A stretch of DNA of 64,000 nucleotides, from assembly GCF_041080675.1 (NCBI RefSeq), contig NZ_CP163520.1, forward strand, positions 6,725,501 through 6,789,500, in the 5' to 3' direction. Both the position numbers and the translations under genes were made by a program. The DNA comes from Streptomyces sp. cg36 (GTDB taxonomy: Bacteria; Actinomycetota; Actinomycetes; Streptomycetales; Streptomycetaceae). Shown here piece after piece: positions 43,248 through 60,132 of this stretch. The stretch's first letter is position 1; each line of letters starts with the position of its first letter. The notes under the pieces were generated by a model that did no database searches, had not been told where the DNA came from, and was given only the letters and a program-made list of their open reading frames with translations.

Positions 43248-43820
43248 GTGTCGGACCTCGATCTGCTGACCCAGTCCCTGGCCCGCAACGTCAAGCGCTG
43301 GCGCACCGAGCGCGGCTTCACCCTGGACGCGCTCGCGGCCCGCGCGGGCGTCAGCCGCGGCATGCTCATCCAGATCGAGCAGGCCCGGACCAACCCCAGC
43401 GTCGGGACCGTGGTGAAGATCGGCGACGCCCTCGGCGTCAGCATCACCACGCTGCTCGACTACGAGAGCGGGCCCAGCGTCCGCGTCGTTCCGCCCGACC
43501 AGGCCGTCCGGCTCTGGTCCAGCGAGAGCGGCAGCTACAGCACCCTGCTCGCGGGCCGGGAGGCGCCCGGGCCGCTGGAGCTGTGGCACTGGCACCTGAT
43601 GCCCGGCGACGGCAGCTCCTCCGACCCGCACCCCGCCGGCACCGTCGAGCTCATCCACGTCACCGAGGGCACCCTCACCCTGGTCGTGGACGGCGCCGAA
43701 CATCCCGTCCCGGCGGGCCACTCCGCCTCCTTCGAGGCCGGCGCCGCCCATACCTACCGCAACGACGGCACCGAGCCGGTGGAGATGACGATGGCGATCT
43801 CGGTCCCCTTCGAGCGCTGA
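43248..43820 (+). CDS. XRE-family regulator with cupin sensor domain
   Basis: A 190-residue regulator. Residues about 8-65 are the helix-turn-helix (LARNVKRWRTERGFTLDALA, RAGVSRGMLIQIEQARTNPS). Residues about 95-188 form a cupin ligand domain (PHPAGTVELIHVTEGTLTLV, PAGHSASFEAGAAHTYRN). This PuuR/SutR-like plan senses small molecules and usually represses a divergent transporter, here the EamA gene. GTG at 43248 follows GGACGG. Its 5' UTR should be about 55 nt. Confidence 0.9.
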   Translation: MSDLDLLTQSLARNVKRWRTERGFTLDALAARAGVSRGMLIQIEQARTNPSVGTVVKIGDALGVSITTLLDYESGPSVRVVPPDQAVRLWSSESGSYSTLLAGREAPGPLELWHWHLMPGDGSSSDPHPAGTVELIHVTEGTLTLVVDGAEHPVPAGHSASFEAGAAHTYRNDGTEPVEMTMAISVPFER

Positions 43821-44015
43821 ACCACCGGGCCGCGCGGGACACGCGGGGGCGGCGGTACCCGTGGGGCGGCGCCCCCGGTGGCGTGAACCGGCCATCCCCG
43901 CGCGGGAGTCGGACTCACCCGCCGGGACTTGTGCGATATTGCCGGGAGCGGGGAATGCATGTGCGCAGAGGGTATGTGTCCTCACGCAACGGCACGCCCG
44001 TCCGAGGGGGTCTTC

Positions 44016-44204
44016 ATGGAACATCTCGTCACGGCAGCCGAACGGCCCTGTCCGGCGCCCGACCGCCAGGGCCGAGAACGGCCACCACTGCACGCCCAGG
44101 CCGTCAGGGCCCGCGGCGGTGAACTCCCCGCCGGGGTCCGGAGGCTGATGGCCGCCGAGAGCGCCTCGACGGTGCCGGTCGCCGCGTTCCAGTCGTCGCT
44201 CTAG
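44016..44204 (+). CDS. fxsA: FxSxx-COOH cyclophane-type precursor peptide FxsA
   Basis: A 62-residue peptide beginning MEHLVTAAERPCP and ending with the defining C-terminus F58-Q-S60-S-L62. A radical SAM/SPASM maturase (FxsB) gene starts 16 nt downstream, so this is the substrate. In characterised three-residue cyclophane enzymes the ring joins the aromatic residue to the third residue, here F58 and S60. The region around PAGVRRLMAAESASTVPVA is the likely recognition helix. GAGGGGG lies 5 nt before the ATG at 44016. Earlier in-frame ATGs (43959 and others) would add a Cys-rich stretch and are less likely. Confidence 0.9.
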   Translation: MEHLVTAAERPCPAPDRQGRERPPLHAQAVRARGGELPAGVRRLMAAESASTVPVAAFQSSL

Positions 44205-44219
44205 CGGCCGGGTCGCGCC

Positions 44220-46670
44220 GTGGAGCAGCCGCCACCGGCGTTGTCCCAGGTCGTGCTGAAGATGCACAGCCGCTGCGACCTGGCGTGCGACCACTGCTAC
44301 GTCTACGAGCACGCCGACTCCAGCTGGCGCGGCCGGCCCAGAGCGGTGTCGCAGGAGATCCTGGCCGCGACCGCGGCCAGGATCGCCGAGCACGCGCGGG
44401 CCCACCGGCTGCCCCGCGTCCGCGTCGTCCTGCACGGCGGCGAACCGCTGCTCGCCGGGCCCGCCCTGCTGCGCCGCGCGGGCGAGGAGCTGTACCGCGC
44501 GCTGCGCGGAGTCTGCGCCCTGGACCTGCGCATCCACACCAACGGGGTGCTGCTCGACGAGGAGTTCTGCGAGCTCTTCCGGGAGCTCGGCATCCGCGTC
44601 GGCGTCTCGCTCGACGGCGACCGGGCCTCCAACGACCGCCACCGCCGCTACGCCGACGGCCGCAGCAGCCATGCCCGGGTCCTCGCCGCCGTGGCCCTGC
44701 TCACCCGCCCCCGCTACCGGGAGCTGTTCGCCGGGCTGCTCTGCACCATCGACATCGACAACGACCCGGTCGCCGTCCACGACGCGCTGGCCGCCCTGCG
44801 CCCGCCGCGCGTGGACTTCCTGCTGCCGCACGCCACCTGGGACACCCCGCCGCCGCGCCCGCCCGGCTCGCCCACCCCGTACGCGGACTGGCTCGACACG
44901 GTCTACCGGCGCTGGGAGGCCGGGGGCCGCGCCTTCCCCGTACGCCTCTTCGAGTCCGTGCACCGCACCCTGCGCGGTGCGAGCAGCGTCACCGAGTCCC
45001 TGGGGCTCGCCCCCGCCGACCTGGTGGTCGTCGAGACCGACGGCACCTTCGAGCAGGCCGACAGCCTCAAGACGGCGTACGACGGCGCCCCCGCCACCGG
45101 GCTCAACGTCTTCGACCACGGTCTCGACGACGTGCTCGGCCACCCCGGGGTGCTGGCCCGCCAGAAGGGGATCGAGGCGCTCTGCGCGCGCTGCACCGCC
45201 TGTCCGGTGGTACAGCACTGCGGCGGCGGCCTCTACGCCCACCGCTACAGGACCGGATCCGGCTTCGACAACCCGTCCGTCTACTGTCCCGACCTGATGG
45301 CGCTGATCATGAACATCCGTGGCCACGAATCACTCCGCGCACCGGCGGCGGCCCCCGGGGCCGGCCCCGACGCACTCGACGGCGGCTCCGGACAGCCACT
45401 GGAACCGGCCGACTTCGAAGAGCTGGCAGCCGGATTCGGCGGCGCCGCCGCGGTCGACCGCCTCGCGCTCGCCCAGCTCGACCTCAACCGGGAACTGCTC
45501 GCCGCGGTCGGCGGCCGGGTGGACCCGGGGGACCCGCGCGCCGGCGCCGCCTGGGAGCTGCTCCTCGACCTGGACGCCGCCGCGCCGCACGCCCTGGAGA
45601 CCGCCCTCACCCATCCCTACTTCCGGCCGTGGGCGCTCGGCGTGCTCGGCGGCCGGGGCCCCGACACCCTCGCCGGGGGGCTCGCGGAGCTGGCCGCCGC
45701 GGCGGCCCTGCGCGCCCGGCGCGCCGACACCGTGGTCGTCCCGCTGCGCCGGGGCACCCTGCGGCTGCCGGGGATCGGCCGGGCGCTGCTGCCGGGGGGC
45801 GCCGAGGAGGCCGAAATGACCGCCGAGTCCTACGGGTTCACGGTCCGCTGCGGCGGACAGCGGCTGCGGATGGGCTGGAGCGAGGGGCTCGACGGCCGCA
45901 CCCCGCACTGGGAGCCCGTCCGCCTCTTCGAGGCCGACGGGTGGACCGTGGCCCTGGAGGACACCGACCCGCTGCGCGACCGCTACCAGTGGCCGGTCGA
46001 GGACCGGCTGCCCGCCACCGGCGCCCGCGCCTGGGCGACCGGCCTCGCCGCCGCCTGGTCCCTGATCCGTCGTCAACTCCCGCGCTACGCCCCGGGGATG
46101 GCCGCCGGGCTGCGCGCCATCACCCCGCTGACCCCGCGCCCCGGCAGCGACACCAGCGCCACCTGCCGGGACGCCTTCGGCGCCGTCGGCGCGGCCCGCC
46201 CCGCCGACCCCGCCCCGCTCGCGCTCCTGCTCGTCCACGAGTTCCAGCACGTGAAGCTGGGCGCGGTGCTCGACTGCTGCGATCTGTACGACCCGGAGGA
46301 CACCGGGCGGTACTACGCCCCCTGGCGCGAGGACCCCAGGCCCCTGGGCGGGCTGTTCCAGGGCACCTACGCCCATCTCGCGGTGACCGACTTCTGGCGG
46401 GTGCGGCGCACCCTGGCCGACGGACCCGCCGAACGCGGCCGGGCCGAGGCGGAGTTCGCCCGCCGGCGTCAGCAGACCACGGACGCCGTCGACACGCTGG
46501 CCCGCTGCGGTTCGCTCTCCGCGCTCGGCAAACGGTTCGTCGCCGGGATGGGGGAGAGCGCCGCGGCCTGGCGGGACGAGCGGGTGGCCCCCGAGGCGCT
46601 CGCCGGAGCCCGCAGTTCCGTACGGAGCCACCGCGACGCCTGGCGCGCCCGCAACGCGCCGCGCGCATGA
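44220..46670 (+). CDS. fxsB: Radical SAM/SPASM peptide maturase FxsB with HExxH-bearing extension
   Basis: An 816-residue fusion. The radical SAM domain begins VVLKMHSRCDLACDHCYVYE, with cluster ligands C19, C23 and C26. The SPASM domain near 320-356 has C322, C325, C328, C334 and C356. The C-terminal half (about 380-816) is the extension typical of FxsB and resembles the HExxH modification domain. It carries H673-E-F-Q-H677. This subfamily is often labelled as an inactivated extension form, yet the motif is intact here. It should form the cyclophane in FxsA. The GTG at 44220 has a poor ribosome site, so coupling to fxsA is likely. Confidence 0.93.
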   Translation: MEQPPPALSQVVLKMHSRCDLACDHCYVYEHADSSWRGRPRAVSQEILAATAARIAEHARAHRLPRVRVVLHGGEPLLAGPALLRRAGEELYRALRGVCALDLRIHTNGVLLDEEFCELFRELGIRVGVSLDGDRASNDRHRRYADGRSSHARVLAAVALLTRPRYRELFAGLLCTIDIDNDPVAVHDALAALRPPRVDFLLPHATWDTPPPRPPGSPTPYADWLDTVYRRWEAGGRAFPVRLFESVHRTLRGASSVTESLGLAPADLVVVETDGTFEQADSLKTAYDGAPATGLNVFDHGLDDVLGHPGVLARQKGIEALCARCTACPVVQHCGGGLYAHRYRTGSGFDNPSVYCPDLMALIMNIRGHESLRAPAAAPGAGPDALDGGSGQPLEPADFEELAAGFGGAAAVDRLALAQLDLNRELLAAVGGRVDPGDPRAGAAWELLLDLDAAAPHALETALTHPYFRPWALGVLGGRGPDTLAGGLAELAAAAALRARRADTVVVPLRRGTLRLPGIGRALLPGGAEEAEMTAESYGFTVRCGGQRLRMGWSEGLDGRTPHWEPVRLFEADGWTVALEDTDPLRDRYQWPVEDRLPATGARAWATGLAAAWSLIRRQLPRYAPGMAAGLRAITPLTPRPGSDTSATCRDAFGAVGAARPADPAPLALLLVHEFQHVKLGAVLDCCDLYDPEDTGRYYAPWREDPRPLGGLFQGTYAHLAVTDFWRVRRTLADGPAERGRAEAEFARRRQQTTDAVDTLARCGSLSALGKRFVAGMGESAAAWRDERVAPEALAGARSSVRSHRDAWRARNAPRA

Positions 46671-46762
46671 CCGGCGCCGCCGATTCGGCGCGCACGGGCG
46701 TTCCGCCGACGGATCGCTCGTTCCTACACTGAGGACCCACCCACTCGGACCGGGAGGGAGCG

Positions 46763-48124
46763 GTGCACGGAGCCGCGCGGCGCGGGGGGCACGAGCCGAG
46801 GCCGTACTTCTTCCTGAGTTACGCCCACACGCCGAGGAACGACCCGCGGGACCGCGACCCCGACCTGTGGGTGCAGCGGTTCTTCCACGACCTGTCCGCG
46901 CACGTGATGCAGCTGACCGCGCTCCCGGCCGGGGTGCCCGCCGGCTTCATGGACCAGCACGTGCGCCCCGGCGAGGACTGGCAGGAGCAGATCACCGAGG
47001 CGCTGGCGTACTGCCGGGTCTTCGTGCCGCTGTACTCGCCGCGCTACTTCCTGAGCGAGCAGTGCGGGCGCGAGTGGTTCGCGTTCGCCGGGCGCGAGAC
47101 CCTGCACCAGTCGCGCAGCGAGCAGCGCGGCAGCCCGGCGATCGTGCCCGCGCTCTGGATCCCCGTCCTGCCCCACCAACTGCCCGAAGCCGCCCGCAGG
47201 CTGCGCTTCGACCACGCCGACTTCGGCGGCGACTACGCCGACGAGGGCTTCTACGGGATGATCAAACTCCGCTATCTCCAGGACCACTACGAGCACGCCG
47301 TCTACCAGCTCGCCAAACGGATCGTCGGCGTCGCCGAGCGGACCAGGGTGGCCGACGGGGACCCCCACCAGGACTACGCCACCCTCACCTCCGCGTTCGG
47401 CCCCGCCGCCGGGCCCGGCCGCAAGCTGGAGGTCACCGTCCTGGCCTGCTCCCGCGACGGCCTGCCGCGCGGACGCGGCCCCGACTGCTACGGCCCCCGG
47501 CCCAGCGACTGGAACCCCTACCACCCGCTCTCCGCCCGCCCCCTCGCCCGCCACACCGCCGAGCTCGTCGTCAACCTCAACTACACCGTGGACCTGCGCG
47601 AGTTCGACGACAGCGCGGAGCGGCTGCTGCGCCCCGGCCCGCCCGACGCGCCCGGCCTGCTGCTCCTGGACCGCTGGGCACTGGCCTCCGCGCGCCACCG
47701 CGACCTGGTGCGCACCCTGTGCGCCGAGCCCCGGCCGTGGATCAGCGTGATGGTCCCGTGGAACCGCCAGGACCCCGAATCCCCGCCGCACGAGGCGGAG
47801 TTGCGGCACGTGGCCGACGAAGTGCTGGGGGCGCGGCTGCGGGAGAGCCCGGGACACCTGACGCAGGGGGGCGGACTGCCTACTCTGGAAGCCTTCAGCC
47901 AGGAGCTCCCGAGGGCGGTACGGTCGGCGGTGCGGCACTACGAGCGGGCCGCCGCCCCGGCCGGTCCCGCCGGACCCGGCAGCCCACTGCCCCGCGTACT
48001 GCCGGGCGGGGTGGGGCTCGGCCGCTCCGGGCGGGACCGCACATGGGACGAGCGGGACCAGCGCACCGCCGGGAACACCAGGGCCGAGCGGATGGAGGAC
48101 CCTCCAGATGGCCGAGCACCGTGA
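46763..48124 (+). CDS. fxsC: TIR-like protein FxsC
   Basis: A 453-residue protein of the Fxs system. Residues about 13-200 form a TIR domain: PYFFLSYAHTP is the first strand, and YFLSEQCGREW at 96-106 contains the SxxCxxE-type motif with E104, the position of the catalytic Glu in NAD-cleaving TIR proteins. A second domain (about 210-400) is the FxsC-specific C-terminal part. The Pro/Gly/Arg-rich tail overlaps the next gene by 17 bp. GGGAGGGAG at 46752-46760 precedes the GTG. NADase activity is inferred from the motif only. Confidence 0.9.
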   Translation: MHGAARRGGHEPRPYFFLSYAHTPRNDPRDRDPDLWVQRFFHDLSAHVMQLTALPAGVPAGFMDQHVRPGEDWQEQITEALAYCRVFVPLYSPRYFLSEQCGREWFAFAGRETLHQSRSEQRGSPAIVPALWIPVLPHQLPEAARRLRFDHADFGGDYADEGFYGMIKLRYLQDHYEHAVYQLAKRIVGVAERTRVADGDPHQDYATLTSAFGPAAGPGRKLEVTVLACSRDGLPRGRGPDCYGPRPSDWNPYHPLSARPLARHTAELVVNLNYTVDLREFDDSAERLLRPGPPDAPGLLLLDRWALASARHRDLVRTLCAEPRPWISVMVPWNRQDPESPPHEAELRHVADEVLGARLRESPGHLTQGGGLPTLEAFSQELPRAVRSAVRHYERAAAPAGPAGPGSPLPRVLPGGVGLGRSGRDRTWDERDQRTAGNTRAERMEDPPDGRAP

Positions 48125-51100
48125 CGGGACCGTGATCACGTTCTACTCGTACAAGGGCGGGACCGGACGCACGATGGCGCTCGCCAACTGCGCCTGGATC
48201 CTGGCGGCCAACGGCCACCGGGTGCTCGCCGTGGACTGGGACCTCGAAGCGCCCGGCCTGCACCGCTTCTTCCACCCCTTCCTCGACCTGCGCGACATGG
48301 AGGCCACCCCCGGGCTGATCAACCTGATCACCGAGTACCAGGTGGAGGCCGAGCGGACCGGCGAGCACACGCCCGACTGGCACCGCGACTACGCCCGGGT
48401 GCGCCGCCACGCGGTCTCCCTGAACTGGGAGTTCCCGGCGGGCGGCAGCCTGGACTTCCTCTCCGCGGGCCGCCGCAACCGCGACTACTCCTCGGTCGTC
48501 GGCCGGATGGACTGGGACCACTTCTACGAGCACTCCGGCGGCGGCCAGTTCTTCGACGCGATGAAGGACGACATGCGCCGCCACTACGACTACACCCTCA
48601 TCGACAGCCGCACCGGACTGAGCGACATCGCCGACATCTGCACCGTCCAGATGCCCGAGGTCCTCGTCGTCTGCTTCACCCTCAGCGACCAGAGCATCGA
48701 CGGCGCCTCCGCCGTCGTCCGGGACATCGACGAGCGCTACCGCCACCGCGGCATCCGCATCCTGCCGGTGGCGACCCGCATCGACCTCGGCGAGAAGGGC
48801 AAGGCCGACGCCGGACGGGCCCTGGCCCGGGAGTGCTTCGAGGGCTTCCCGACCGGTCTGACCGGCGAGGACGCCGACGCCTACTGGGGCTCGATCGAGA
48901 TCCCCTACCAGCCGTTCTACGCGTACGAGGAGGTGCTGGCCACCTTCGGGGACCCGCCCGGCGTCAGCAGCTCCCTGCTCACCGCCTTCGAACGGCTCAC
49001 CGCGGTGCTCACCGAGGGACGGGTCACCGTGCTGCCGCCGATCGACGAGGCGCTGCGCGCCACCCATGTCGCAGCCTTCACCCGCCGCCGCCCCAAGTCC
49101 CCGGCGAACATCGTGCTGCACCACGTCTCCGAGGACCGGATGTGGGTCGACTGGCTGTCCTTCGTGCTCGGCGCGGCGGGCTTCCGCACCCTCCCGGTCG
49201 ACGTGCGCGCCCCCGAACCGGGCGCGTTGGAGCGGGAGTTCGGCCAGGACGCCGCCCACCGGGTGCTGCACGTCGCCTCCCCGCCCTACCTCAAGTCGCG
49301 CGGCGGGCGTGGCCTGTGGGACACCGGCCCCGACCGCGCGGGACGCCGCCCACCGCTGCCGGTGCGGGTCGCGGACGTCCGGCTCACCCCGCCGCCCGGC
49401 GCCCGCCGCCCCGTCGACCTGGTACGGGTCGACGAGGCCGAGGCGACCGCCGCCCTGCTCGCCGCCCTGGACCGGGCGGAGGCCGTCGCCGCGCCGCCGG
49501 TCGGCGCCGACCGGCCCCGCTTCCCGGGACGGGTGCCCCGCATCTGGAACGTACGGCCGCGCAACACCTGGTTCACCGGCCGCACCCCGCTGCTCGACCG
49601 GGTCCGCGACCAGCTGCGCGGCGACAGCCGCTCCGGTGAGCGCGCGCCCCAGGTGCTGTACGGACTGGGCGGGGTGGGCAAGACGCAGGTCGCGCTGGAG
49701 TACGCCCACCGCTTCCGGGCCGACTACGACGCGGTGTGGTGGATCGAGGCCGAGCGGCCCGACCGGGTGGTGGCGTCGCTGGCCCAGCTCGCCGTGGAGA
49801 TGGACCTGCGGGCGGGCGACGTGGTGGCCGAGGCGGCGCAGGCCGCGCTGGCCGAACTGTTCCGCGGCGAACGCTATCCGCGCTGGCTGCTGATCTTCGA
49901 CAACGTGGAGGACCTGGACGGGGCCCTGCGCCGGCTGCCCCAGCAGATCGGGCCGCTGCCGCCCGGAGTGTACGGACACCTCCTCGCCACCTGCCGCGGC
50001 AAGCCCGCCACGGCCGAACTGGAGACCACCCAGGTCGACGTCTTCACCCGGTCGGAGAGCGTGGAGCACCTGACCTGGCGGGTGGCGGGGCTGCCGCCCG
50101 CGGACGCGGCCCGGGTCGCCGACGCGGTCGGCGACCTTCCGCTGGCCGTCGAGGTCGCCGCCGCCTGGCTCGCCGAGACCGCCACCCCCGTCGACGCCTA
50201 CCTGGACCAGCTCAGGGAGCAGAGCACCCAGGTCCTCTCGCTCGGCACCCCGGAGGGCTACGGCCAGCGGGTCGGCGCCACCTGGAACATCTCCATCAGC
50301 AGGCTGCGCCAGGAGTCCCGCGCGGCCGTACGGCTGCTGGAGCTGTGCTCCTTCTTCTCCGCCGAACCCGTCTCCATGCGGCTGATCGGCAGCGACGCGA
50401 TGCTGGAGGCGCTGCTGCCGTACGACGCGGGCCTGAGCGAGCGGTACATGCTGGGGCGGGTCGTCCAGACGCTCAACCGGTTCGCCCTGGCCAAGGTCGA
50501 CCCGGCCGACAGCAGCATCCAGGTGCACCGGCTCGTCCAGGCCGCCGTGCGCGCCGGACTCACCGCCGAGCAGCAGGTGGAGGCCCGGCACGTGGTGCAC
50601 CGCATCCTGGCGCAGGCCCGGCCCGCCGAGGGCGGCGACCGGGAGGACCCGGTGAGCGACCCCAGGAGCTGGCCCGCCTTCGAGCTCATCTGGCCCCATC
50701 TGGCCGCCTCCGGCATCGCCGACAGCGGCGACGAGAAGGCGCGCGAGCTGATGGTCGACCGCATCCGCTATCTGCACAAGCGCGGCGACCTGGAGAACGC
50801 CCGGGCACTGGGTGCCCAGCTGGACCACGCCTGGACCAAACAGCTCGGCGAGGACGCGTCGCACACCCTGAACGTCCGCTTCGAACTCGCCAACACCCTG
50901 CGGGCCCAGGGCAAGTACCAGGAGGCGCTGGAGCTGGACGAGGACACCCTCGCCCGCCAGCAGCGCCTGCTCCACGCCGACCATGCCGGCGACGACCACC
51001 CCAGCGTCCTGATCGTCACCGGCAGTCTCGCCGCCGACCTGCGGGCCGTCGGCAGGTTCACCGAGGCGCTGGAGCGCGACCTGTGGGTCTACCAGGGCAT

Positions 51101-52073
51101 GCGCCGGCTCTTCGGCGACAACCACCGGCGCACCCTGATCGCCGCGCACAACCTGGCCATCGACTACCGGCTGACCGGCGACAGCGAGGCCGCCCGCCGC
51201 CTGGACGAGGGGACCGTGGACCGGCGCTCGGTGCTGCTCGGCTCCGAGCACCCCTTCACCCTGGTCACCAAGGCCCAACTGGCGGGCGATCTGCGCGAGA
51301 TCGGCGAGTACGGGACGTCCGTGCAGGTCCTGCGCGAGGTCGTGGACGAACTGCGGCGGGTCCTGGACCCGCACTCGCCCGAGGTGCTGCGGAGCGCCAA
51401 GAGCCTGGCGGTCTCGCTGCGCAAGGCCGGACACCCGCACGAGGCGATGCGGCTGAGCACCGAGACCTTCGAGCGCATCCGGGACCGCTACGGGGCGAAG
51501 TCGCCCGACACCCTGGCCTGCGGCCTCAATCTGGCCGCCGACTTCGCGGCGGTGGACGACCCGGCCCGCGCCCTGGAGCTGGCCACCGAGATACTGCGGG
51601 GCTACCGCGCCAACCTCGGCGACCGCCACCCCTACACCTTGGCCTGCCGCGCCAATGTGGTCGTCTACCGGCGGGCCACCGGGGCGGCCCGGGACGCGGT
51701 GGCCGACGCCGAGGAGGTCCGCGCCCAGCTCCAGGACGTCCTCGGTCCGCAGCACCCCTTCACGCTCTCGGCGGCGGTCAACCTGGCCAATGTGTACGGG
51801 GACCTGGGCCGGGCCGATCTGGCCGAGCGCTGGGAGCAGACCGCGCTGGAGGGCCTGCTCAACCGGCTCGGCGACTGGCACCCGGACGTGCTGGTGTGCC
51901 GGTCCAACCTGGCGATCACCCTGCGGGAGGCGGGCCGGGGCGAGGAGGCGGCCGGGATCCGCGCGGCGGTCCTGGAACCGGCGGCCGAACGGCTCGGCGT
52001 GGACCACCCCATCGCCGAGGCGGCCCGCTCCTGGCGGCGCACGGACCGGGACATCGAGATCCATCCGGTGTGA
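48108..52073 (+). CDS. FxSxx-COOH system ATPase/NB-ARC/TPR protein (FxsT-like)
   Basis: A 1321-residue multidomain protein. Residues 1-320 form a MinD/SIMIBI ATPase with deviant Walker A KGGTGRT at 16-22 and VDWDLEAPGLHR. Residues about 333-470 look TIR-like (ANIVLHHVSEDRMWVDWLSF). Residues about 490-800 are NB-ARC, with GLGGVGKT at 519-526 and Walker B WLLIFDNVED. From about 840 to the end are tetratricopeptide repeats. This matches the Fxs-associated tetratricopeptide protein. The layout parallels STAND/NLR signalling proteins: the TPRs would sense and the NTPase would oligomerise. It is co-translated with fxsC. Confidence 0.92.
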   Translation: MAEHRDGTVITFYSYKGGTGRTMALANCAWILAANGHRVLAVDWDLEAPGLHRFFHPFLDLRDMEATPGLINLITEYQVEAERTGEHTPDWHRDYARVRRHAVSLNWEFPAGGSLDFLSAGRRNRDYSSVVGRMDWDHFYEHSGGGQFFDAMKDDMRRHYDYTLIDSRTGLSDIADICTVQMPEVLVVCFTLSDQSIDGASAVVRDIDERYRHRGIRILPVATRIDLGEKGKADAGRALARECFEGFPTGLTGEDADAYWGSIEIPYQPFYAYEEVLATFGDPPGVSSSLLTAFERLTAVLTEGRVTVLPPIDEALRATHVAAFTRRRPKSPANIVLHHVSEDRMWVDWLSFVLGAAGFRTLPVDVRAPEPGALEREFGQDAAHRVLHVASPPYLKSRGGRGLWDTGPDRAGRRPPLPVRVADVRLTPPPGARRPVDLVRVDEAEATAALLAALDRAEAVAAPPVGADRPRFPGRVPRIWNVRPRNTWFTGRTPLLDRVRDQLRGDSRSGERAPQVLYGLGGVGKTQVALEYAHRFRADYDAVWWIEAERPDRVVASLAQLAVEMDLRAGDVVAEAAQAALAELFRGERYPRWLLIFDNVEDLDGALRRLPQQIGPLPPGVYGHLLATCRGKPATAELETTQVDVFTRSESVEHLTWRVAGLPPADAARVADAVGDLPLAVEVAAAWLAETATPVDAYLDQLREQSTQVLSLGTPEGYGQRVGATWNISISRLRQESRAAVRLLELCSFFSAEPVSMRLIGSDAMLEALLPYDAGLSERYMLGRVVQTLNRFALAKVDPADSSIQVHRLVQAAVRAGLTAEQQVEARHVVHRILAQARPAEGGDREDPVSDPRSWPAFELIWPHLAASGIADSGDEKARELMVDRIRYLHKRGDLENARALGAQLDHAWTKQLGEDASHTLNVRFELANTLRAQGKYQEALELDEDTLARQQRLLHADHAGDDHPSVLIVTGSLAADLRAVGRFTEALERDLWVYQGMRRLFGDNHRRTLIAAHNLAIDYRLTGDSEAARRLDEGTVDRRSVLLGSEHPFTLVTKAQLAGDLREIGEYGTSVQVLREVVDELRRVLDPHSPEVLRSAKSLAVSLRKAGHPHEAMRLSTETFERIRDRYGAKSPDTLACGLNLAADFAAVDDPARALELATEILRGYRANLGDRHPYTLACRANVVVYRRATGAARDAVADAEEVRAQLQDVLGPQHPFTLSAAVNLANVYGDLGRADLAERWEQTALEGLLNRLGDWHPDVLVCRSNLAITLREAGRGEEAAGIRAAVLEPAAERLGVDHPIAEAARSWRRTDRDIEIHPV

Positions 52074-52084
52074 CCACGGGCGCC

Positions 52085-52109
52085 GGGCGGCGGGCGGGCG
52101 CCGCCGCCC
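52085..52109 (+). terminator. Hairpin after the Fxs operon
   Basis: GGGCGGCG and CGCCGCCC pair around a 9-nt loop 12 nt past the stop. It sits between converging operons and may serve both. Confidence 0.5.
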
Positions 52110-52129
52110 CGCCCGGAGCGGCTGAGCGG

Positions 52130-52993
52130 CTACTGCGTCGCCCAGCTGAGCGCCCGGGTGAACACCTCCAGGGCTCCGAAATGCGCCGCGTCGGGGGGTA
52201 CTTCGAGGTGCGATCCCGGTATCCGCTCGGCCAGCCAGTGGGTGTGCTGGACGGGCGCGAAGACGTCCTGCGCGCCGTGCCACAGCAGCACCGGACGCCG
52301 GATGTCCGCCGGGCTGAACTCCCACGGCGAGCCCAGCGCCAGGATGTCGTCCACCCATCCGTCGGCCGAATCGCGCAGCCCGTCCGCGAAGTTGCGCACC
52401 AGCAGCGCCCGGATGGCCGCGTCGGTGAGCACCGAGCGGTCCGGGTCCGGCACCATGCCGTGCATCGCGGTGACGGTGGCCGTCGGATCGGCCCGGATCT
52501 CCCGCGCCCGCTCCTCGAACACCGCCGTCACGGCCCCCGGCCCGCCCGCCGCGATCGTGTACGCCCGCACATTGTCCTCGGTCATGCCCGCGAACCAGTC
52601 GAGCCCGGCCGCGTCGCGCGGCGCCAGCGGGACGAGCGCGACCGCCCGTGCCGTACGCTCCGGCAGCAGCGCGGCGCAGGACAGCGCGTGCGGAGCGCCG
52701 CCCGAGCGGCCCACCACGGCGAACGTGTCGATGCCCAGCGCGTCCGCGATCGCCGCCACGTCCTGCGCCGCGTGCGCCACCCGCCGCCCCGGACGCCGCT
52801 CCGAGTCGCCGTACCCCGGCCGGTCGAAGGTGATCAGCCGGATCCTCATCCGGTACAGCACGGTGCTGCGGGGCGCCGGGCCACGGCGGCTTCCGGGCGT
52901 ACCGTGCAGCAGGAACACGGGTCTGCCCAGCGGGTGCCCCCGGCTCTCCACGGCGAGCCGGCGGCCGTCCGGGGTGCGGATCACCTTGTGCAA
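52130..52993 (-). CDS. Alpha/beta hydrolase
   Basis: A 287-residue hydrolase. HGTPGSRRG is the oxyanion loop, GRSGGAPHAL the nucleophile elbow with Ser near residue 96, GAQDVFAPV the acid and PPDAAHFGAL the catalytic His. TTG at 52993 is the start, with GGGAGG 6 nt upstream. It ends 57 nt from the convergent Fxs operon. The CoA-binding gene lies 92 nt upstream. The substrate is unknown. Confidence 0.88.
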   Translation of the reverse strand: MHKVIRTPDGRRLAVESRGHPLGRPVFLLHGTPGSRRGPAPRSTVLYRMRIRLITFDRPGYGDSERRPGRRVAHAAQDVAAIADALGIDTFAVVGRSGGAPHALSCAALLPERTARAVALVPLAPRDAAGLDWFAGMTEDNVRAYTIAAGGPGAVTAVFEERAREIRADPTATVTAMHGMVPDPDRSVLTDAAIRALLVRNFADGLRDSADGWVDDILALGSPWEFSPADIRRPVLLWHGAQDVFAPVQHTHWLAERIPGSHLEVPPDAAHFGALEVFTRALSWATQ

Positions 52994-53085
52994 GAGGCGC
53001 CTCCCGTACGTCCGTCCGCGGCCGTGACGGGGTCAGTATGGGCGCGCGCCGGACATCCGGTACAGACCCGTGAACGGCCCGGGGG

Positions 53086-53493
53086 TCAGCCGAGCCGGGG
53101 GATCTCGATCGCCGGGCAGCGGTCCATCACCATGTCGAGCCCCGCCGCCCGCGTCCGCTCGAACGCCGCGTCGTCGATCACCCCGAGCTGGAACCAGACC
53201 GCCTTGGCGCCCGCCGCGACGGCCTGGTCGGCCACGTCCCCGGCCAGGTCGCTGTTGACGAACACATCGACCACGTCGACCTTGAACGGGATCGCGTCCA
53301 GCGACGCGTACCCCTGCTCCCCGTGGACCGTCTCCGCCTTGGGGTGCACGGGCACGATCCGCTTCCCGAACCGCTGGAGCACCCGTGCCACTCCGTACGC
53401 CGCGCGCCGCTCGTTGGACGACAGACCCACGACGGCCCAGGTGTCCCCGGTCTCCGTCAGGATCCTGCGGACCGTCTCCTGCTCGCTGTTCAC
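53086..53493 (-). CDS. CoA-binding protein (YccU type)
   Basis: A 135-residue Rossmann-fold CoA-binding protein: DTWAVVGLSSNERRAAYGVA, then RVLQRFGKRIVPVHPKAETV, and the end AGLDMVMDRCPAIEIPRL, which is the family signature. The function is not known beyond ligand binding. GGGAG lies 7 nt before the GTG at 53493. It begins 28 nt after the long operon upstream and may be its last co-transcribed member. Confidence 0.9.
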   Translation of the reverse strand: MNSEQETVRRILTETGDTWAVVGLSSNERRAAYGVARVLQRFGKRIVPVHPKAETVHGEQGYASLDAIPFKVDVVDVFVNSDLAGDVADQAVAAGAKAVWFQLGVIDDAAFERTRAAGLDMVMDRCPAIEIPRLG

Positions 53494-53521
53494 TCCGTGC
53501 CTCCCACGGACCACCGGTCCG

Positions 53522-55216
53522 TCAGTCGATCTCCTTTCCCTGCGAACGAGCGGGCCCCTGCGGGAATTCCCGTTCGTCGGGCACGGTGGCCACGGCCAGT
53601 ACGTTGCCCTCGCTGATGTATCCGTCGGGGCCGTCGAGCGGGTGGTCCGGCCCGTCCGGGTCCGCGTAGCGCCGCCACTCCTGGCTCAGGCCCAGCTCCA
53701 GGGCCTGGGCGGCGAGCTGGGCGCAGGTCGGCGCGTAGAACGACCGCGCCCGCTCGGACAGCGGCGCGAAGTGCTCGATGAGCACCGTGCGCTGACGCAC
53801 CTCGGTCAGCCCCGCCGCCTTGAGATGGCGGTACAGATCGCGGGTGCGCAGCAACTGCGCGGCATAGCCGGGCGTCCGCCCGGCCGCCCGGAAGAAGTCC
53901 GCGAACAGATACGGGTCGGTGGGGCGGGCCGTGATCAGATGCGCGTCCAGGTCCTTCACCGCGACCGTGCCGCCCGGCCTGACGACCCGCCGCAGCTCCC
54001 GCAGCGCGCGGGCCAACTCGTCGTCGTCGAGGTACTGGACGGTGTTGGCGCACCACACCGCGTCGAACGTGTCGTCCGGGTAGGGCAGTTCGAGCAGATC
54101 GGCCCGGCGCACCTCCACCGGGCAGCCGGGCGCCCAGCGGGCCAGCCGTCCGGTTGCCAGCGCCGCGTTCTCCTCGGCCAGGTCCACCGCTGTGACCCGC
54201 CCGCCCGGGCCGACCAGCTCGGCCAGCCACGGCAGGAAGTCCCCGCCGCCGCATCCGGCGTCCAGGACGTGCGCGCCCGGCCCGATGCCGGCCTGGCCCA
54301 GCAGTTCCAGATAGGCGTCCCGGCAGGCGTCGAAGTGGGCGTCGACGATGGTGTGGTGGGTGAAGCCGAGCCCGGTGGAGGTGGTGAAGCCCCAGGCCCG
54401 GTGGTCGTCGGTGAGCATCAGCGCGCCCCCCGTCCGCTCGGGTCCGGCCGCGAGCTCGGCCAGCAGGGCGTCCAGTTCGGCCTGGGTCGCCTTCGGTGTC
54501 TCCAGCGGCGGCAGATGTCCCGTGCGCGGCAGGACGGCCACCCGGCCCCGGGGCAGGGCCCCGGCCATGGTGCGGGCGTCGGCCACCGACACCAGCTCGT
54601 CCTCCTCGCCCACGACCACCACCGCCGGTATGTCGGCGTCCCGCAGCACGTCCAGGGCGTCCCCGCGCGCCCCGATCGCCCGCTGGGCCCATATCAGGGA
54701 GGCGGGCGCGGCCCCGGCGACGACGGCGCGCACCCCGGCCAGGACCTCCGGGCGCTCGGCCCGGGTGGTGGCGCCCACCAGCCGGGCCGCCGTCGCGTCG
54801 ATGACCGCCGGGCCCTTCACCGGGTCCGCCATGACGGCGACGAAACCCTCCCGGGCCGCCCGCGCGGCCTCGTCGTCGGCCTCCGCCCGGGTCGAGATCA
54901 GGGCCAGCGCCAGGGCGCGGCCCGGGTGGCGGCGCAGGAACTCCATCGCCACATAGCCGCCCATCGACACCCCGGCCAGCACCGCGCGCCCGATGCCGCG
55001 CCGGTCCAGCTCGCGTGCCACGTCGTCCGCCACGACGTCCAGCGACGGCGGTGCGTCGCCGAGCGGGGCGGCCCCGAAGCCCCGCTGGTCGGGGACGACG
55101 ACCTGGTGCCCGCGCCGCTCCAGCTCGGCCCGCTGCGCCCGCCACATCGAGGAGTCGAGGGAGAGGGCGTGCAGCAGGACCACGGGCGGCCGGTCGGCCG
55201 TGCCGGCTCCGGTCAT
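53522..55216 (-). CDS. Alpha/beta hydrolase - SAM methyltransferase fusion
   Basis: A 564-residue fusion. Residues 1-265 form an alpha/beta hydrolase with nucleophile Ser in GVSMGGY, acid in GEEDELV and His in RTGHLPP. Residues about 280-560 are a class I methyltransferase with motif I VLDAGCGGGDFLPWL, acidic VDLAEE and the later FDAVWCANTVQYL. The start overlaps the stop of the preceding gene by ATGA (55213-55216). It is the last of eight coupled genes in a likely biosynthetic operon, so a tailoring step (ester handling and methylation) is plausible. Confidence 0.85.
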   Translation of the reverse strand: MTGAGTADRPPVVLLHALSLDSSMWRAQRAELERRGHQVVVPDQRGFGAAPLGDAPPSLDVVADDVARELDRRGIGRAVLAGVSMGGYVAMEFLRRHPGRALALALISTRAEADDEAARAAREGFVAVMADPVKGPAVIDATAARLVGATTRAERPEVLAGVRAVVAGAAPASLIWAQRAIGARGDALDVLRDADIPAVVVVGEEDELVSVADARTMAGALPRGRVAVLPRTGHLPPLETPKATQAELDALLAELAAGPERTGGALMLTDDHRAWGFTTSTGLGFTHHTIVDAHFDACRDAYLELLGQAGIGPGAHVLDAGCGGGDFLPWLAELVGPGGRVTAVDLAEENAALATGRLARWAPGCPVEVRRADLLELPYPDDTFDAVWCANTVQYLDDDELARALRELRRVVRPGGTVAVKDLDAHLITARPTDPYLFADFFRAAGRTPGYAAQLLRTRDLYRHLKAAGLTEVRQRTVLIEHFAPLSERARSFYAPTCAQLAAQALELGLSQEWRRYADPDGPDHPLDGPDGYISEGNVLAVATVPDEREFPQGPARSQGKEID

Positions 55217-55848
55217 CGCGCACCGCTCCCGTTCTCGGCGTCCGCCACGAACCGGGCTATGTGCGCGGCCGGTTCGGGCTCGCGCAGCCAGGCCAGCGCC
55301 ACCGGGGCGGGCGGCAGGTCGGAGATCGGGATCACGCGGATGTTCGGCGGCGTGATCGTCTCCAGGGACTGGAACGAGAGATGGACCGCGTCCGTGCCGG
55401 AGAGCGTGCCCATCAGCCCCTTCACCGTGCCCAGTTCGTAGGCCCGGCGGATGCGGCGGCCCCTGGGGGTGCGGGGCGGGACGACCTCGTCCCACACGGA
55501 CTCGGGGAACGCGCCGGGACGGCGGAAGCCCTCGTACGCGGCGAGCTCCTCCACCGAGACGGAGTCGTGCGTGGCGAGCGGGTGGTGGGCGCCGACGAGC
55601 GCCGCGCGCGGGTCGTACGCCACCGGGCGGCTCACGGCCAGATCCGGCTCCCGCACCTCGTACTTGACGATCACCAGGTCCAGCTCCTTGGCGCGCAGCC
55701 CCCGGAACGGATCGGCCACGTCGTAACCGATCATGGCGACGTCGGACTCCGCGCGGCCCGCCGAGCGCACCACGGCGGCGGCGAGGTCGGGCGAGCCGTG
55801 GATGCCCAGCCGCACGGCGGGCGCGGAGGCGGTGGACGGGTCACTCAT
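55213..55848 (-). CDS. LysR-type effector-binding domain without HTH
   Basis: A 211-residue protein covering only the periplasmic-binding-like effector domain of LysR regulators: VRLGIHGSPDLAAAVVRSAG, then LRAKELDLVIVKYEV, and HHPLATHDSVSVEELAAYEG. The N-terminal DNA-binding domain is absent, not cut by a frameshift, since the upstream gene overlaps its start by 8 bp. It may be a binding or enzymatic protein derived from LysR. Coupled on both sides inside the operon. Confidence 0.8.
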   Translation of the reverse strand: MSDPSTASAPAVRLGIHGSPDLAAAVVRSAGRAESDVAMIGYDVADPFRGLRAKELDLVIVKYEVREPDLAVSRPVAYDPRAALVGAHHPLATHDSVSVEELAAYEGFRRPGAFPESVWDEVVPPRTPRGRRIRRAYELGTVKGLMGTLSGTDAVHLSFQSLETITPPNIRVIPISDLPPAPVALAWLREPEPAAHIARFVADAENGSGAR

Positions 55849-56593
55849 GGGGTGTCTCCTCGGTCAGTGCGGCATAGGCGCGCAGTTGATGGGGGTGGGC
55901 CCGGTCGACGTCGACGCGGAGCGCCGCGAACGGGATGTCCGCCCCGGCCAGGCTGGGGACGGACCGCAGGGTCAGCCGGTCTCCGGGGGCGACGAGACCG
56001 TCCAGAACCGCCTCGACCACCAGGTGGTTGAGGTGGACGAGCCCCAGGGGCAGGGGCACGCCGGACACCGCCACGTACACGTCGCGGTGGACCGGGGCCC
56101 GGGTGGGCCCGTCGTGCCGCGCGGGAACGGACGGCACGGTGACCGTCCCCGGCGGGCGGACCGGGAACGGGGCCGTGGACGTGAACAGTTTGAGCAGCCG
56201 GCGCAGCCCCGCCGTGCTCCCGGCCGGTGCGGGGGCGCACCAGCCGACCGACCCGTCCTCGGCCAGGTGGTCGAATGAGTAACGGCCCAGCAGGTTCCGC
56301 GGGTTCCCGGCCAGGTACACCGTTCGGGTGAATGAGCGGCGCCAGGCCGCGGCGGTCCCGGGCGGCAGGCCGAGGGCGAGGACGGCCGCCTCCCGCACCC
56401 AGGCCACGGGGTCCAGGTGGTGCACGACCGCCACCGCCTGCGCCGCGTCGGCGCCCGGCTCCGCGGCGACCGCCTCGCGCACCGCGAGCAGCGCGGCGAG
56501 GTCCGGTTCGCCCGCGGGGCGAACCAGTTCGGGCCGGGCCTCGCGCAGCCGGCGGACCGCCTCGGCGTGCAGCCGCCGCTGGGTCAGGGGCAC
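55841..56593 (-). CDS. Unknown protein, 250 aa (DUF6182-like)
   Basis: Starts VPLTQRRLHAEAVRRLREAR. Segments FTRTVYLAGNPRNLLGRYSF, DHLAEDGSVGWCAP and LRRLLKLFTSTAPF resemble, from memory, the DUF6182 family found in actinobacterial biosynthetic clusters, but I am not sure. GGAGG 7 nt before the GTG at 56593 sets the start, which overlaps the preceding gene by 10 bp. No motif gives a reaction. It is probably soluble alpha/beta and may have a carrier or partner role. Confidence 0.7.
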   Translation of the reverse strand: MPLTQRRLHAEAVRRLREARPELVRPAGEPDLAALLAVREAVAAEPGADAAQAVAVVHHLDPVAWVREAAVLALGLPPGTAAAWRRSFTRTVYLAGNPRNLLGRYSFDHLAEDGSVGWCAPAPAGSTAGLRRLLKLFTSTAPFPVRPPGTVTVPSVPARHDGPTRAPVHRDVYVAVSGVPLPLGLVHLNHLVVEAVLDGLVAPGDRLTLRSVPSLAGADIPFAALRVDVDRAHPHQLRAYAALTEETPHE

Positions 56594-57759
56594 AGGAACA
56601 CCTCCGCGAGCAGATCCCGCGCCGGCGCGGCGCGGTGCCGGGCGAGCAGACCCGTGGTGAGCCGGTAGGGGTCCACGTACACGTGGTCGCGCCGGTGGAC
56701 CGCGAGCCGCTCGGCGAGCGCCGGACCGGCCTCGGGCGGCGCCCCGGCCAGCAGGCGTTCGGCGCGCCGCAGACACTGGTGCAGCAGCTCGGGCCGGTGG
56801 GACTGCCCCTGCCCGGGACCGAGCGTGGCGATGAAGTAGAGCCGCATGCCGAGCCGTACCGCCGCCGGGTCGTGGTCGGCGTGGGCCGCGTCCAGCAGCG
56901 CGCCCGCGTCCAGGCCCCGCCACCCGCCCTCGCGCGCGGAGCGGATCTTGCCGTCGACGGGGACGCGCCCGACCGGGACCCGGTGCACCGAGGGGCCGAG
57001 CGGGGCGAGCACGCGGGCGAGGAGCTGGTAGTCGGGGTCGAGCTCGCGGTCGTAGAGGAAGACGACTTCGTCGAAGTCCGGTGCCAGGGGCAGGAGTTCG
57101 CGCAGGGCGCAGGCCAGGTAGTTGGGGCGGCCGTCGGCCGTGACGATCTGGCGCAGCGGCAGCCCGTGGCGGGTGAGGTCCAGGTAGACCGGTCCGCCGA
57201 GCTCGCGGTGGTCCAGACACAGCCCACGCGCGCGCAGCCGTTCCAGTGCCTCCTCCAGGCCGAGCCCCGGCGGCTGGTGGGCGAGCAGCCCGGGGTCGTG
57301 CAGCCCCAGCCGCCGGTAGTGCCCGCGCCACAGCCCGAGGACGCGGGTGGCCGCCGGATGCACCCAGCCGTGCCGCTCCACGGCTTCGGCGTACGGCCGC
57401 AGCGCCTCGGCCGGGGCCCGCTCGGGTGCCGCCCGGTGGCGTACGTACAGCGCCCCGATGTCGTCCTCGGACAGCTGCGAGTAGTCCGCGTCGCCGTGCG
57501 TGCGGTCCAGGAACTCCCAGAAGGCGAGGGTCTGTTCGGTGAGGTGGTACGTGGTGTGGCTGAAGCGGTAGTCGACGTCGGCGAGACAGCCGGTGGCCCG
57601 GTACATCACGTCCGTCCAGAACAGCCCCTTGAGGTGGCTCGGGGTGAGCGGTTTCGACGGGGTGATGGTGATCGGGGCCAGCAGCACCCGGCGGCGTGCT
57701 CCGGCGGCCGACGGGGCCGGTGCGGCGGCGGAGGCCGCCAGGGCGGGGTAGGTCGTCAC
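56584..57759 (-). CDS. Unknown protein, 391 aa, in GH3 operon
   Basis: After a short Ala/Pro-rich start comes RRVLLAPITITPSKPLTPSH and LKGLFWTDVMYRATGCLADV, then NYLACALRELLPLAPDFDEV and VFLYDRELDPDYQLLARVL, where the D-rich segment could be a metal or nucleotide site. I do not recognise the family. GTG at 57759 with GGGGAGC upstream overlaps the monooxygenase stop by 4 bp. The conserved-looking segments are spread over the whole length, so it is a full enzyme-sized protein rather than a fragment. Confidence 0.7.
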   Translation of the reverse strand: MTTYPALAASAAAPAPSAAGARRRVLLAPITITPSKPLTPSHLKGLFWTDVMYRATGCLADVDYRFSHTTYHLTEQTLAFWEFLDRTHGDADYSQLSEDDIGALYVRHRAAPERAPAEALRPYAEAVERHGWVHPAATRVLGLWRGHYRRLGLHDPGLLAHQPPGLGLEEALERLRARGLCLDHRELGGPVYLDLTRHGLPLRQIVTADGRPNYLACALRELLPLAPDFDEVVFLYDRELDPDYQLLARVLAPLGPSVHRVPVGRVPVDGKIRSAREGGWRGLDAGALLDAAHADHDPAAVRLGMRLYFIATLGPGQGQSHRPELLHQCLRRAERLLAGAPPEAGPALAERLAVHRRDHVYVDPYRLTTGLLARHRAAPARDLLAEVFLCP

Positions 57760-59171: not shown

Positions 59172-59172
59172 C

Positions 59173-60030
59173 TCAGCGCCGCCGACCGTGGATGAAGAAC
59201 ACCCGGCGGACGTTCGCCACGTGGCGCGGCGGCACGGGGTCGGGCCAGCGGCCGAAGTCGGCGCCCGGCTCCCCGGGCTGGACGGCCTCGACGGAGAAGC
59301 CCAGCGCGTCGAAGAGCGCCTCGGGCTCGTCGGTCCCGAAGAGCCACGGGCAGCCCCAGCCCGCGAAGACGTCCAGCAGCCCCCGCATCTCGGGGAGTGT
59401 CAGGGCGGCGCTGTTGACGAGGTCGGCGGCGATGCGGCTGCCGGGCGCGGAGATCGCGGCGACGCGTTCCAGGATGCGGTGGGTGTCCTGCTCGGGGATG
59501 TAGTAGAGCAGCCCCTCCAGCAGCCAGGTGGAGGGCAGTGAGGGGTCGTACCCGGCCGCGATGAGGTCGTTCTCCCAGTCGGGGGAGGTGAGGTCGACGG
59601 CGACCGTGCGGTGGTCGGTACGGGGCTCGACGCCCCCCAGCCGCTCCGCCTTGTGGGCGAGCACGGCCGGGCGGTCGACCTCGTAGTAGCGCAGCCCCTC
59701 GGGCCAGTCGAGCCGGTACGCGCGCGAGTCCATGCCGGCCGGTGCCAGCACGATCTGGTGCATCCCGGGCTCGCGCGCGGCCTCCTGGAGGTAGTCGTCG
59801 AAGTACCGGGTGCGGATGGCGTTGTAGTCCGGGGTGCTGGGGAGCGTACGGGCCGAGTCCGCGGGGAACGTCGCCGACCGGATCTCCGCCAGCAGGTCGG
59901 GGCCGATGTCGCCGCAGAGCGCGTCCGCGTGGGGATCCTGGTAGATGCGGTCGGGCCGACGCGTCTCGGCCGCCCGCAGGGCGGCGGTGAGCAGAGCGGT
60001 GCGTTCGACTGCGTCGAGCGGTGCGGTCAC
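59173..60030 (-). CDS. SAM-dependent methyltransferase, LCM/TIGR00027 type
   Basis: A 285-residue methyltransferase of the leucine carboxyl methyltransferase-like family. RTALLTAALRAAETRRPDRI begins it, VLAPAGMDSRAYRLDWPEG is the family SAM motif, and TWLLEGLLYYIPEQDTHRIL continues. Members methylate carboxyl or hydroxyl groups of metabolites. GTG at 60030 has AAGGAG about 11 nt upstream. It lies 102 nt downstream of the GH3 gene. Confidence 0.88.
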   Translation of the reverse strand: MTAPLDAVERTALLTAALRAAETRRPDRIYQDPHADALCGDIGPDLLAEIRSATFPADSARTLPSTPDYNAIRTRYFDDYLQEAAREPGMHQIVLAPAGMDSRAYRLDWPEGLRYYEVDRPAVLAHKAERLGGVEPRTDHRTVAVDLTSPDWENDLIAAGYDPSLPSTWLLEGLLYYIPEQDTHRILERVAAISAPGSRIAADLVNSAALTLPEMRGLLDVFAGWGCPWLFGTDEPEALFDALGFSVEAVQPGEPGADFGRWPDPVPPRHVANVRRVFFIHGRRR

Positions 60031-60132
60031 GGCGTTCGTGTCTCCTTCGGTCGGATGTGTACGGGTGGGGACGGGGGCGCCCGCGGCCGGGTAGGGATGG
60101 TCGCGGCGCGGGCTGCCCCGGGGGCGCGCCGG

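Follow-up and report, generated by a model that had tools for sequence, protein, structure and literature searches.

A five-gene FxSxx-COOH cassette in Streptomyces sp. cg36 as a candidate intracellular, TIR-effector immune switch

The stretch analyzed here—64,000 nucleotides of Streptomyces sp. cg36 (contig NZ_CP163520.1, positions 6,725,501 to 6,789,500), which we call the window—carries what its sequence marks as a canonical standalone FxSxx-COOH (Fxs) locus, with four co-directional genes on the plus strand (fxsA, fxsB, fxsC, and fxsD; 44016-52073). An alpha/beta-hydrolase gene on the minus strand extends the predicted cassette to 52984 and to five genes. We suggest that this cassette might form an intracellular, NLR-like, TIR-effector immune switch in which a modified peptide serves as the internal ligand, a reading that we regard as quite possible, if short of probable. 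We favor it because a catalytic-type glutamate is kept in FxsC and lost from the TIR domain of FxsD, the NB-ARC P-loop of FxsD is retained, a sister class of loci is linked to SLOG and SLATT genes, and the distribution of the system is patchy. If true, bacteria would have an immune receptor with a cross-linked ribosomal peptide as its internal ligand.

The Fxs core and its fifth gene

An earlier note on this DNA had described four consecutive plus-strand genes of the Fxs family, and all four open reading frames are present in that order, with gaps of 15 bases (fxsA-fxsB) and 92 bases (fxsB-fxsC) and an overlap of 17 bases (fxsC/fxsD). Membership in the family is upheld by NCBIfam models for three of the products: FxsB, named as a radical SAM/SPASM maturase, matches TIGR04269 at 565.6 bits (cut-off 370); FxsC, named as a TIR protein, matches NF040588 at 230.7 bits (cut-off 130) and TIGR04276 at 176.6 bits (cut-off 55), along with TIR_2 at 40.8 bits; and FxsD, named as an ATPase/NB-ARC/TPR protein, matches NF040586 at 990.7 bits (cut-off 300) and the KGGVGR ATPase model NF047398 at 149.4 bits (cut-off 90), with further matches to TIR_2 and TPR_12. 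The 62-residue precursor reads as claimed, ending in F-Q-S-S-L directly ahead of fxsB, and scores 19.6 bits against TIGR04268, under the cut-off of 28; we accepted it because its tail and position fit, so that the placement of the peptide in the family is carried by these two features and not by the hidden Markov model. A precursor also recurs at this position in other loci: among 153 loci with fxsB upstream of fxsC, 136 have an open reading frame ending in F-x-[ST]-x-x within 250 bases of fxsB (window counted, duplicates unmerged), seven have looser or more distant tails (two of which, in loci L144 and L163, look like chance), and ten have none. By the same tail criterion, 123 of the 134 unique loci with a fused fxsB (defined below) carry a precursor.

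The four genes are not the whole cassette, as the earlier note had held. The hydrolase gene lies directly after fxsD, tail-to-tail with it, and in 118 of 160 other Fxs loci (161 minus the window, which is absent from that database) a convergent homologue (45-86% identity) is found no more than 1.5 kb from fxsD. With both flanks of the operon considered, a homologue above 200 bits adjoins 126 of 140 complete loci, a total that counts the window; in 110 it lies downstream and is read from the opposite strand, and in 16 it lies upstream and shares the strand of the operon. Restricted to fused loci and freed of duplicates, the count is 116 of 122. (Our two locus collections overlap, and the 153-, 140-, and 160-locus counts are unmerged.) Of the 14 loci without it, eight are divergent and five are of the S. 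scabiei kind; the last is L118, in whose genome a hydrolase lies about 2 kb outside the compared stretch. The Ser, Asp, and His of the catalytic triad are kept in all 124 distinct sequences. The earlier statement that no protease stands next to the genes leaves this candidate peptide-acting hydrolase out of account.

Linkage between the hydrolase and Fxs genes is equally apparent at the level of genomes. FxsC exceeds its cut-off in 70 of 199 sampled congeners, and a hydrolase homologue of at least 240 bits occurs in 62 of these 70 genomes, compared with nine of the 129 lacking FxsC; at 315 bits or more, the counts are 57 of 70 and 0 of 129. One of the nine cases lies beside fxsB (L251, genome G200), where an fxsB-type gene adjoins the hydrolase gene and no fxsC or fxsD match is found in 18 kb, and hydrolase and maturase can therefore remain paired without the TIR/ATPase pair; the others have no Fxs gene in the examined stretch.

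We consider it very unlikely that the hydrolase is a mere conserved neighbor of the insertion site: those nine genomes would fit such a history, as would the many loci lacking the HExxH motif of FxsB that keep their whole neighborhood (one upstream cluster holds 77 loci, and this class alone is therefore not independent evidence for the linkage), but the gene follows Fxs through differing surroundings (117 loci fall into 24 downstream clusters, and 140 loci into 17 upstream ones), takes either side of the operon, and is missing from examined empty sites. These sites were defined by the left neighbor of fxsA, a helix-turn-helix-cupin regulator that is a core gene (88 of 101 genomes); 30 of the 88 regulator matches, the window's own included, were viewed as loci. 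Within 1.5 kb after the regulator, neither hydrolase nor fxsB was found in any of the 29 other genomes, and the CoA-binding protein gene that forms the right neighbor of the window cassette was present in ten, lying outside reach in the other 19. At one such site (L279), the order runs regulator, CoA-binding, YigZ-like, SbcD-like, corresponding to the window genes at 43248, 53086, 62642, and 63339. Because the examined empty sites lack both, fxsABCD and the hydrolase appear to be gained and lost as a unit, and we interpret the five genes as one accessory block between core genes, with the hydrolase as a component of the cassette.

Table 1. Features of the window and of the sister locus L036 (positions refer to the window unless L036 is named)
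Feature	Position	Strand	Description
fxsA	44016..44204	plus	62-aa precursor, C terminus A-F-Q-S-S-L (F58-Q59-S60-S61-L62)
FQSSL tail of FxsA	44187-44201		
fxsB (FxsBH)	44220..46670	plus	816 aa, GTG start; radical SAM/SPASM maturase and aKG-HExxH domain
HEFQH motif of FxsB	~46236-46250		residues 673-677, intact
fxsC	46763..48124	plus	453 aa, TIR protein, SEQCGREW motif, C-terminal alpha/beta domain
TIR glutamate of FxsC	~47072-47074		E104
fxsD	48108..52073	plus	1321 aa; KGGVGR P-loop (KGGTGRT), degenerate TIR, NB-ARC-type ATPase (YGLGGVGKT), TPRs
Degenerate TIR of FxsD	~49113-49451		residues 336-448
Alpha/beta-hydrolase gene	52130..52984	minus	284 aa, GRSGG nucleophile, PF00561 70.8 bits
SLOG-fold and SLATT genes, sister locus	L036 4703-6094 (~6.226-6.228 Mb of own genome)		flank Fxs
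AAC(3)-fold acetyltransferase gene	L036 8821-9579		inside the Fxs operon

The host genome (9.0 Mb) has three FxsB matches above cut-off. Besides the one in the window, there is another standalone locus near 6.23 Mb (L036, hereafter the sister locus), and at 2.70 Mb lies one in which fxsD and fxsB were matched and no FxsC was found in a 20-kb stretch. The closest named relatives of FxsC are from Streptomyces (S. melanogenes, 86% identity), and named loci outside this genus come from Actinacidiphila, Streptacidiphilus, and Peterkaempfera; in an even sample of the phylum, three of 296 genomes exceed the FxsC cut-off, all of the window's genus and including its own genome. No Rfam family matched across 43600-53600, and no tRNA was found in the window. 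Separately, between the CoA-binding and YigZ-like genes lies a small minus-strand enzyme cluster (53522-62302), perhaps biosynthetic, that encodes a hydrolase-methyltransferase protein, a LysR-type substrate domain, an FAD enzyme, an LCM-type methyltransferase, and a GH3 ligase, each matched in at most four of the compared loci.

Predicted chemistry of the peptide

The description of FxsB as a radical SAM/SPASM maturase stands, and as a single function it is incomplete: a second catalytic-type domain follows, matching the aKG-HExxH peptide beta-hydroxylase family over residues 609-777 (TIGR04267, 194.1 bits; cut-off 40) with an intact HEFQH motif. We therefore predict that FxsB is bifunctional, combining a cyclophane-type radical SAM maturase with an aKG-HExxH beta-hydroxylase domain. 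Among known structures, the radical SAM part matches ChlB (PDB 9gm3, 242.7 bits), and residues 388-792 match PDB 22nu, a chain with the HExxH domain, at 279.3 bits. PDB 22nu and 22ob are titled only "Radical SAM core domain-containing protein," the 22nu-type chain keeps the HEFQH motif, and we found no paper describing either entry in the open-access literature. Our own gene caller preferred a start for fxsB at 44253.

Across loci, the second domain is more often inactivated than intact. After merging identical radical SAM parts, the 143 loci with a fused radical SAM-HExxH gene reduce to 134, in which the motif is kept in 38 (window counted) and lost in 96; a downstream His (GTYAH), which we take to be the third metal ligand, is aligned in all 38 intact sequences. 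These proportions depend on sampling, as the 80 named loci are the best 80 of 377 relatives and were gathered with a query from the window's nearer relatives, which enriches the intact class; in the set gathered before that query, the motif is intact in ten of 67 fused FxsB, window included. The inactivated form already has an NCBIfam model, NF040587, and the sister locus of the same genome has lost the motif.

For the likely product, we take IPR026335 to be the FxsB family. One enzyme listed under it, MscB, joins Phe C4 to Ser Cbeta according to the accessible text of PMC11002830, and because of this precedent the expected product of FxsA is an F58-S60 cyclophane. Gln59 was considered as the hydroxylation site, and we do not claim it. 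The middle residue of F-x-S is Gln in 30 of 35 HExxH-intact loci with a precursor, compared with eight of 94 HExxH-lost loci, but on a tree of the radical SAM part HExxH changes five times and the Gln does not follow: over five independent pairs, the two traits varied in the same way in 0.0, in opposite ways in 0.6, and without difference in 4.4 (averages). The association is thus best read as a clade effect. (One tail, AAFQSFSSK in L182, was read by the pattern as Ser in the Gln count and recoded as Gln for the tree test.)

TIR domains and the SLOG-SLATT partners

The two TIR domains of the cassette differ at the motif glutamate. In FxsC, the Glu of the S..C..E[WL] motif, presumably catalytic as in TIR NADases, is Glu in 95 of 98 loci. 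The three exceptions belong to a group of four loci (L068, L101, L146, and L154) whose full-length FxsC has an altered motif (L068 reads ALGERE and was counted as Glu). In these loci an extra short FxsC-like TIR gene directly precedes the full-length one; three of the short TIRs have WC..EW and one has WCGMEF, which we count in favor of the immune switch. The four are adjacent in the tree and may reflect a single event. In FxsD, by comparison, Glu never precedes the conserved Trp in the 136 sequences having that Trp (154 examined), although FxsD-like TIRs with the Trp from loci without an FxsC match have Glu in four of seven. Retention in one protein and loss in the other fits a division of labor, with a dead docking TIR in FxsD and a live TIR in FxsC. 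The N-terminal P-loop of FxsD is KGGTGRT or a close variant in all 154 sequences, with Arg replacing Lys, and the GK[TS] of the NB-ARC P-loop is kept in at least 136 of 154. By its predicted domains—pseudo-ATPase, pseudo-TIR, NB-ARC, and TPR—FxsD is NLR-like, and its TPRs resemble structures of the kinesin light chain TPRs, which bind peptides.

That FxsC behaves as an effector module is suggested by an arrangement on a Streptomyces plasmid (L290, NZ_CP108204.1, 5626-10200), in which FxsC forms the C-terminal part of a TPR protein. The fusion adjoins an AAA ATPase and a VMAP-M2 protein, fxsB was not found there, nor was it matched in 15.5 kb of the near twin, L115; this appears to be a case of effector swapping into a VMAP-type locus. 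The AAA ATPase next to the fusion has a weak match to mad8, a PADLOC model (E 6e-4).

In the sister class, two further genes point to what may lie downstream of the TIR. Of 131 unique loci, 83 have a gene for a 159-aa protein adjoining fxs and 81 a gene for a 301-aa protein. The longer protein matches SLATT_3 (138.6 bits) and SLATT_1 (121.8 bits). The shorter one has no Pfam match and a PDB profile search found no chain like it, but its confident structural model (predicted local distance difference test score, pLDDT, 94.6) has the SLOG fold as its best PDB matches: YpsA (2nx2, E 5e-8), DprA, ShosA, and LOG. YpsA, DprA, and LOG are SLOG members. Similarity to the ThsA SLOG domain with 3'cADPR (7uxs) is weak (E 2e-3, TM 0.48, rank 23).

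In the genus sample, a SLATT protein above 200 bits occurs in 55 of 70 FxsC-bearing genomes and in none of the 129 others, one of which (G258) has a 116-bit match; 51 of 57 SLATT matches lie within 12 kb of FxsC, and three more in FxsC-bearing genomes are on contigs without an FxsC match. Those 55 genomes are also the ones with SLOG homologues of 145 bits or more, and weaker paralogues (up to 116 bits) are common elsewhere. Within this sample, close SLOG and SLATT homologues are therefore, by sequence score, confined to FxsC-bearing genomes. In the window's own genome, the SLOG protein is matched at E<=1e-25 at a single place, the sister locus at 6.23 Mb. Six of the seven congeneric sample genomes with a typed HExxH-intact locus have the SLOG-SLATT pair, and in four of these six, the window's genome included, it flanks a sister-class locus. 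Two genomes carry the pair without any fxs gene in 18 kb, yet have FxsC elsewhere, which hints at use in trans (n = 2).

The third gene encodes an AAC(3)-fold acetyltransferase (NF033082 156 bits, under the cut-off of 270). Of 134 unique fused loci, 56 have it between fxsB and fxsC, namely 51 of the 96 HExxH-lost and five of the 38 HExxH-intact. The notion that intact loci never carry it was consequently rejected (five more have it nearby). The sister locus holds the only PF02522 match of the window's genome. Such a gene in Fxs operons could possibly serve peptide acylation rather than drug modification.

Proposed mechanism and relation to known systems

In the mechanism we envisage, FxsB would link Phe58 to Ser60 of FxsA and its HExxH domain would hydroxylate a nearby residue, as family chemistry suggests. 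FxsD would hold the TIR effector FxsC by means of its own catalytically dead TIR, and its TPRs would recognize the modified C terminus of FxsA, which would act as an internal ligand (guard or activator). Upon a trigger such as infection, FxsD would assemble FxsC into an active complex that consumes NAD or makes cyclic ADP-ribose; in the sister class, the SLOG protein would sense this product and the SLATT membrane protein would carry out the response. The hydrolase would probably trim or inactivate the peptide or its conjugate, as a modifier or reset. A more specific version is peptide-gated, Thoeris-like immunity, in which the peptide would control the NLR-like ATPase, FxsC would make a product bound by the YpsA/ThsA-fold SLOG protein, a SLATT pore would open, the hydrolase would reset the system, and window-type loci would use SLOG-SLATT pairs encoded elsewhere; we hold this version to be rather unlikely. 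With the partners named—a hydrolase in most complete loci and, in the sister class, SLOG, SLATT, and often an AAC(3)-fold acetyltransferase—the functional chain becomes testable through FxsC chemistry, the SLOG ligand, SLATT-dependent membrane leakage, and peptide turnover.

Several observations weigh against the proposed immune switch. Three of 98 loci have Gln in place of the FxsC glutamate. Only the C-terminal domain of the FxsC model is confident, the TIR half having pLDDT blocks of about 33-55; a fold search with this model, its TIR half poorly modelled, gave nothing at E<=0.001, and a PDB profile search found no FxsC-like chain. Pairs of fxsC and fxsD without fxsB in the examined stretch occur in at least five loci (L130, L134, L138, L140, and L148), and the pair can thus exist without an adjacent peptide, which would be dispensable or made elsewhere. 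No clear mark of a sensor emerges from domain variability in FxsD (mean identities from sampled pairs over 130 loci): across all loci, variability peaks in the last TPR stretch (0.51), but in the HExxH-intact class the pseudo-TIR is lower than that stretch (0.48 vs 0.53). The window's own class has no adjacent SLOG or SLATT gene (0 of 37 HExxH-intact loci for either). FxsC occurs in five plasmid records and was not found in the phage collection searched; PADLOC has no model matching FxsA, FxsC, the hydrolase, or the SLOG and SLATT proteins, and FxsB and FxsD match only its pVip and PDC-M28B models.

Endogenous developmental or stress signaling, in which the STAND/TPR and TIR proteins would relay an internal cue (nutrient, envelope stress, or differentiation) reported by the modified peptide, strikes us as somewhat unlikely. 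Unlike the products of a fast arms race, the KGGVGR domain, the most conserved of FxsD (mean identity 0.75), and the FxsA tails are strongly conserved across loci, and window-type relatives share chromosomal flanking genes. The system is, however, patchy within the genus, found on plasmids, and linked in its sister class to SLOG and SLATT, domains proposed for conflict systems.

Distinctly unlikely, in our judgment, is a ribosomal natural-product cluster whose peptide would be exported as an antibiotic or signal while FxsC, FxsD, and the hydrolase regulate production or confer self-protection. FxsB is of the cyclophane type by family (accessible text of PMC11002830), and the hydrolase and, in relatives, the acetyltransferase could be tailoring or immunity enzymes; but no transporter occurs among the neighbor families common to more than 23 of 131 loci (Pfam and NCBIfam; smaller families partly scanned), the adjacent EamA gene also flanks Fxs-free copies of the site, and FxsC-FxsD pairs occur without nearby fxsB. 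The lack of a shared transporter and the effector-like character of FxsC also keep plausible the earlier suggestion that the peptide acts inside the cell.

Returning to the immune switch, it shares with Thoeris a catalytic-type TIR and, in sister-class loci, a nearby SLOG protein whose resemblance to ThsA is weak. The Fxs TIR differs in coming with a peptide, a maturase, and an NLR-like ATPase, and in having a SLATT membrane protein as partner; the window copy has no adjoining SLOG gene and thus no TIR plus SLOG-effector pair. VMAP ternary systems (vWA, MoxR, VMAP) share an FxsD-like AP-ATPase-TPR protein and FxsB/H genes, and in one VMAP-type locus FxsC is fused; effectors fused to ternary-system proteins are described in the available part of PMC7159879. 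No vWA, MoxR, or VMAP gene occurs among the window neighbors scanned with Pfam (some of the genes), and the FxsC-TPR fusion locus shows no vWA match among the matches listed.

For the maturase, the closest counterparts are the ChlBH-type fusions of radical SAM and aKG-HExxH domains (Morishita et al. 2024, cited in PMC12636437), in which a cyclophane-type enzyme is likewise fused to a beta-hydroxylase; their target residues, Asp and His, according to the same excerpted source, are missing from the FQSSL tail. The core of the system is itself not new. The earlier note held that no role was established for Fxs loci, but Kaur et al. (2020) had already described, in the accessible portion of PMC7159879, standalone FxSxx peptide-processing systems of actinobacteria with a precursor, a radical SAM-SPASM enzyme, a zincin-like (HExxH) domain, and an AP-ATPase with TPRs and an inactive MinD/ParA domain, and had predicted a peptide toxin or signal in conflict systems. 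Their zincin domain was read as a peptidase, whereas later work cited in PMC12636437 (excerpt) identifies the radical SAM-fused HExxH enzyme as a beta-hydroxylase. Among the matches listed from PMC7159879, the alpha/beta-hydrolase, SLOG-SLATT, and AAC(3) genes are not tied to these loci, and in the open-access literature we found neither the hydrolase named as a component of standalone Fxs loci nor links of SLOG, SLATT, or AAC(3) to them; relative to that literature, these four links are new.

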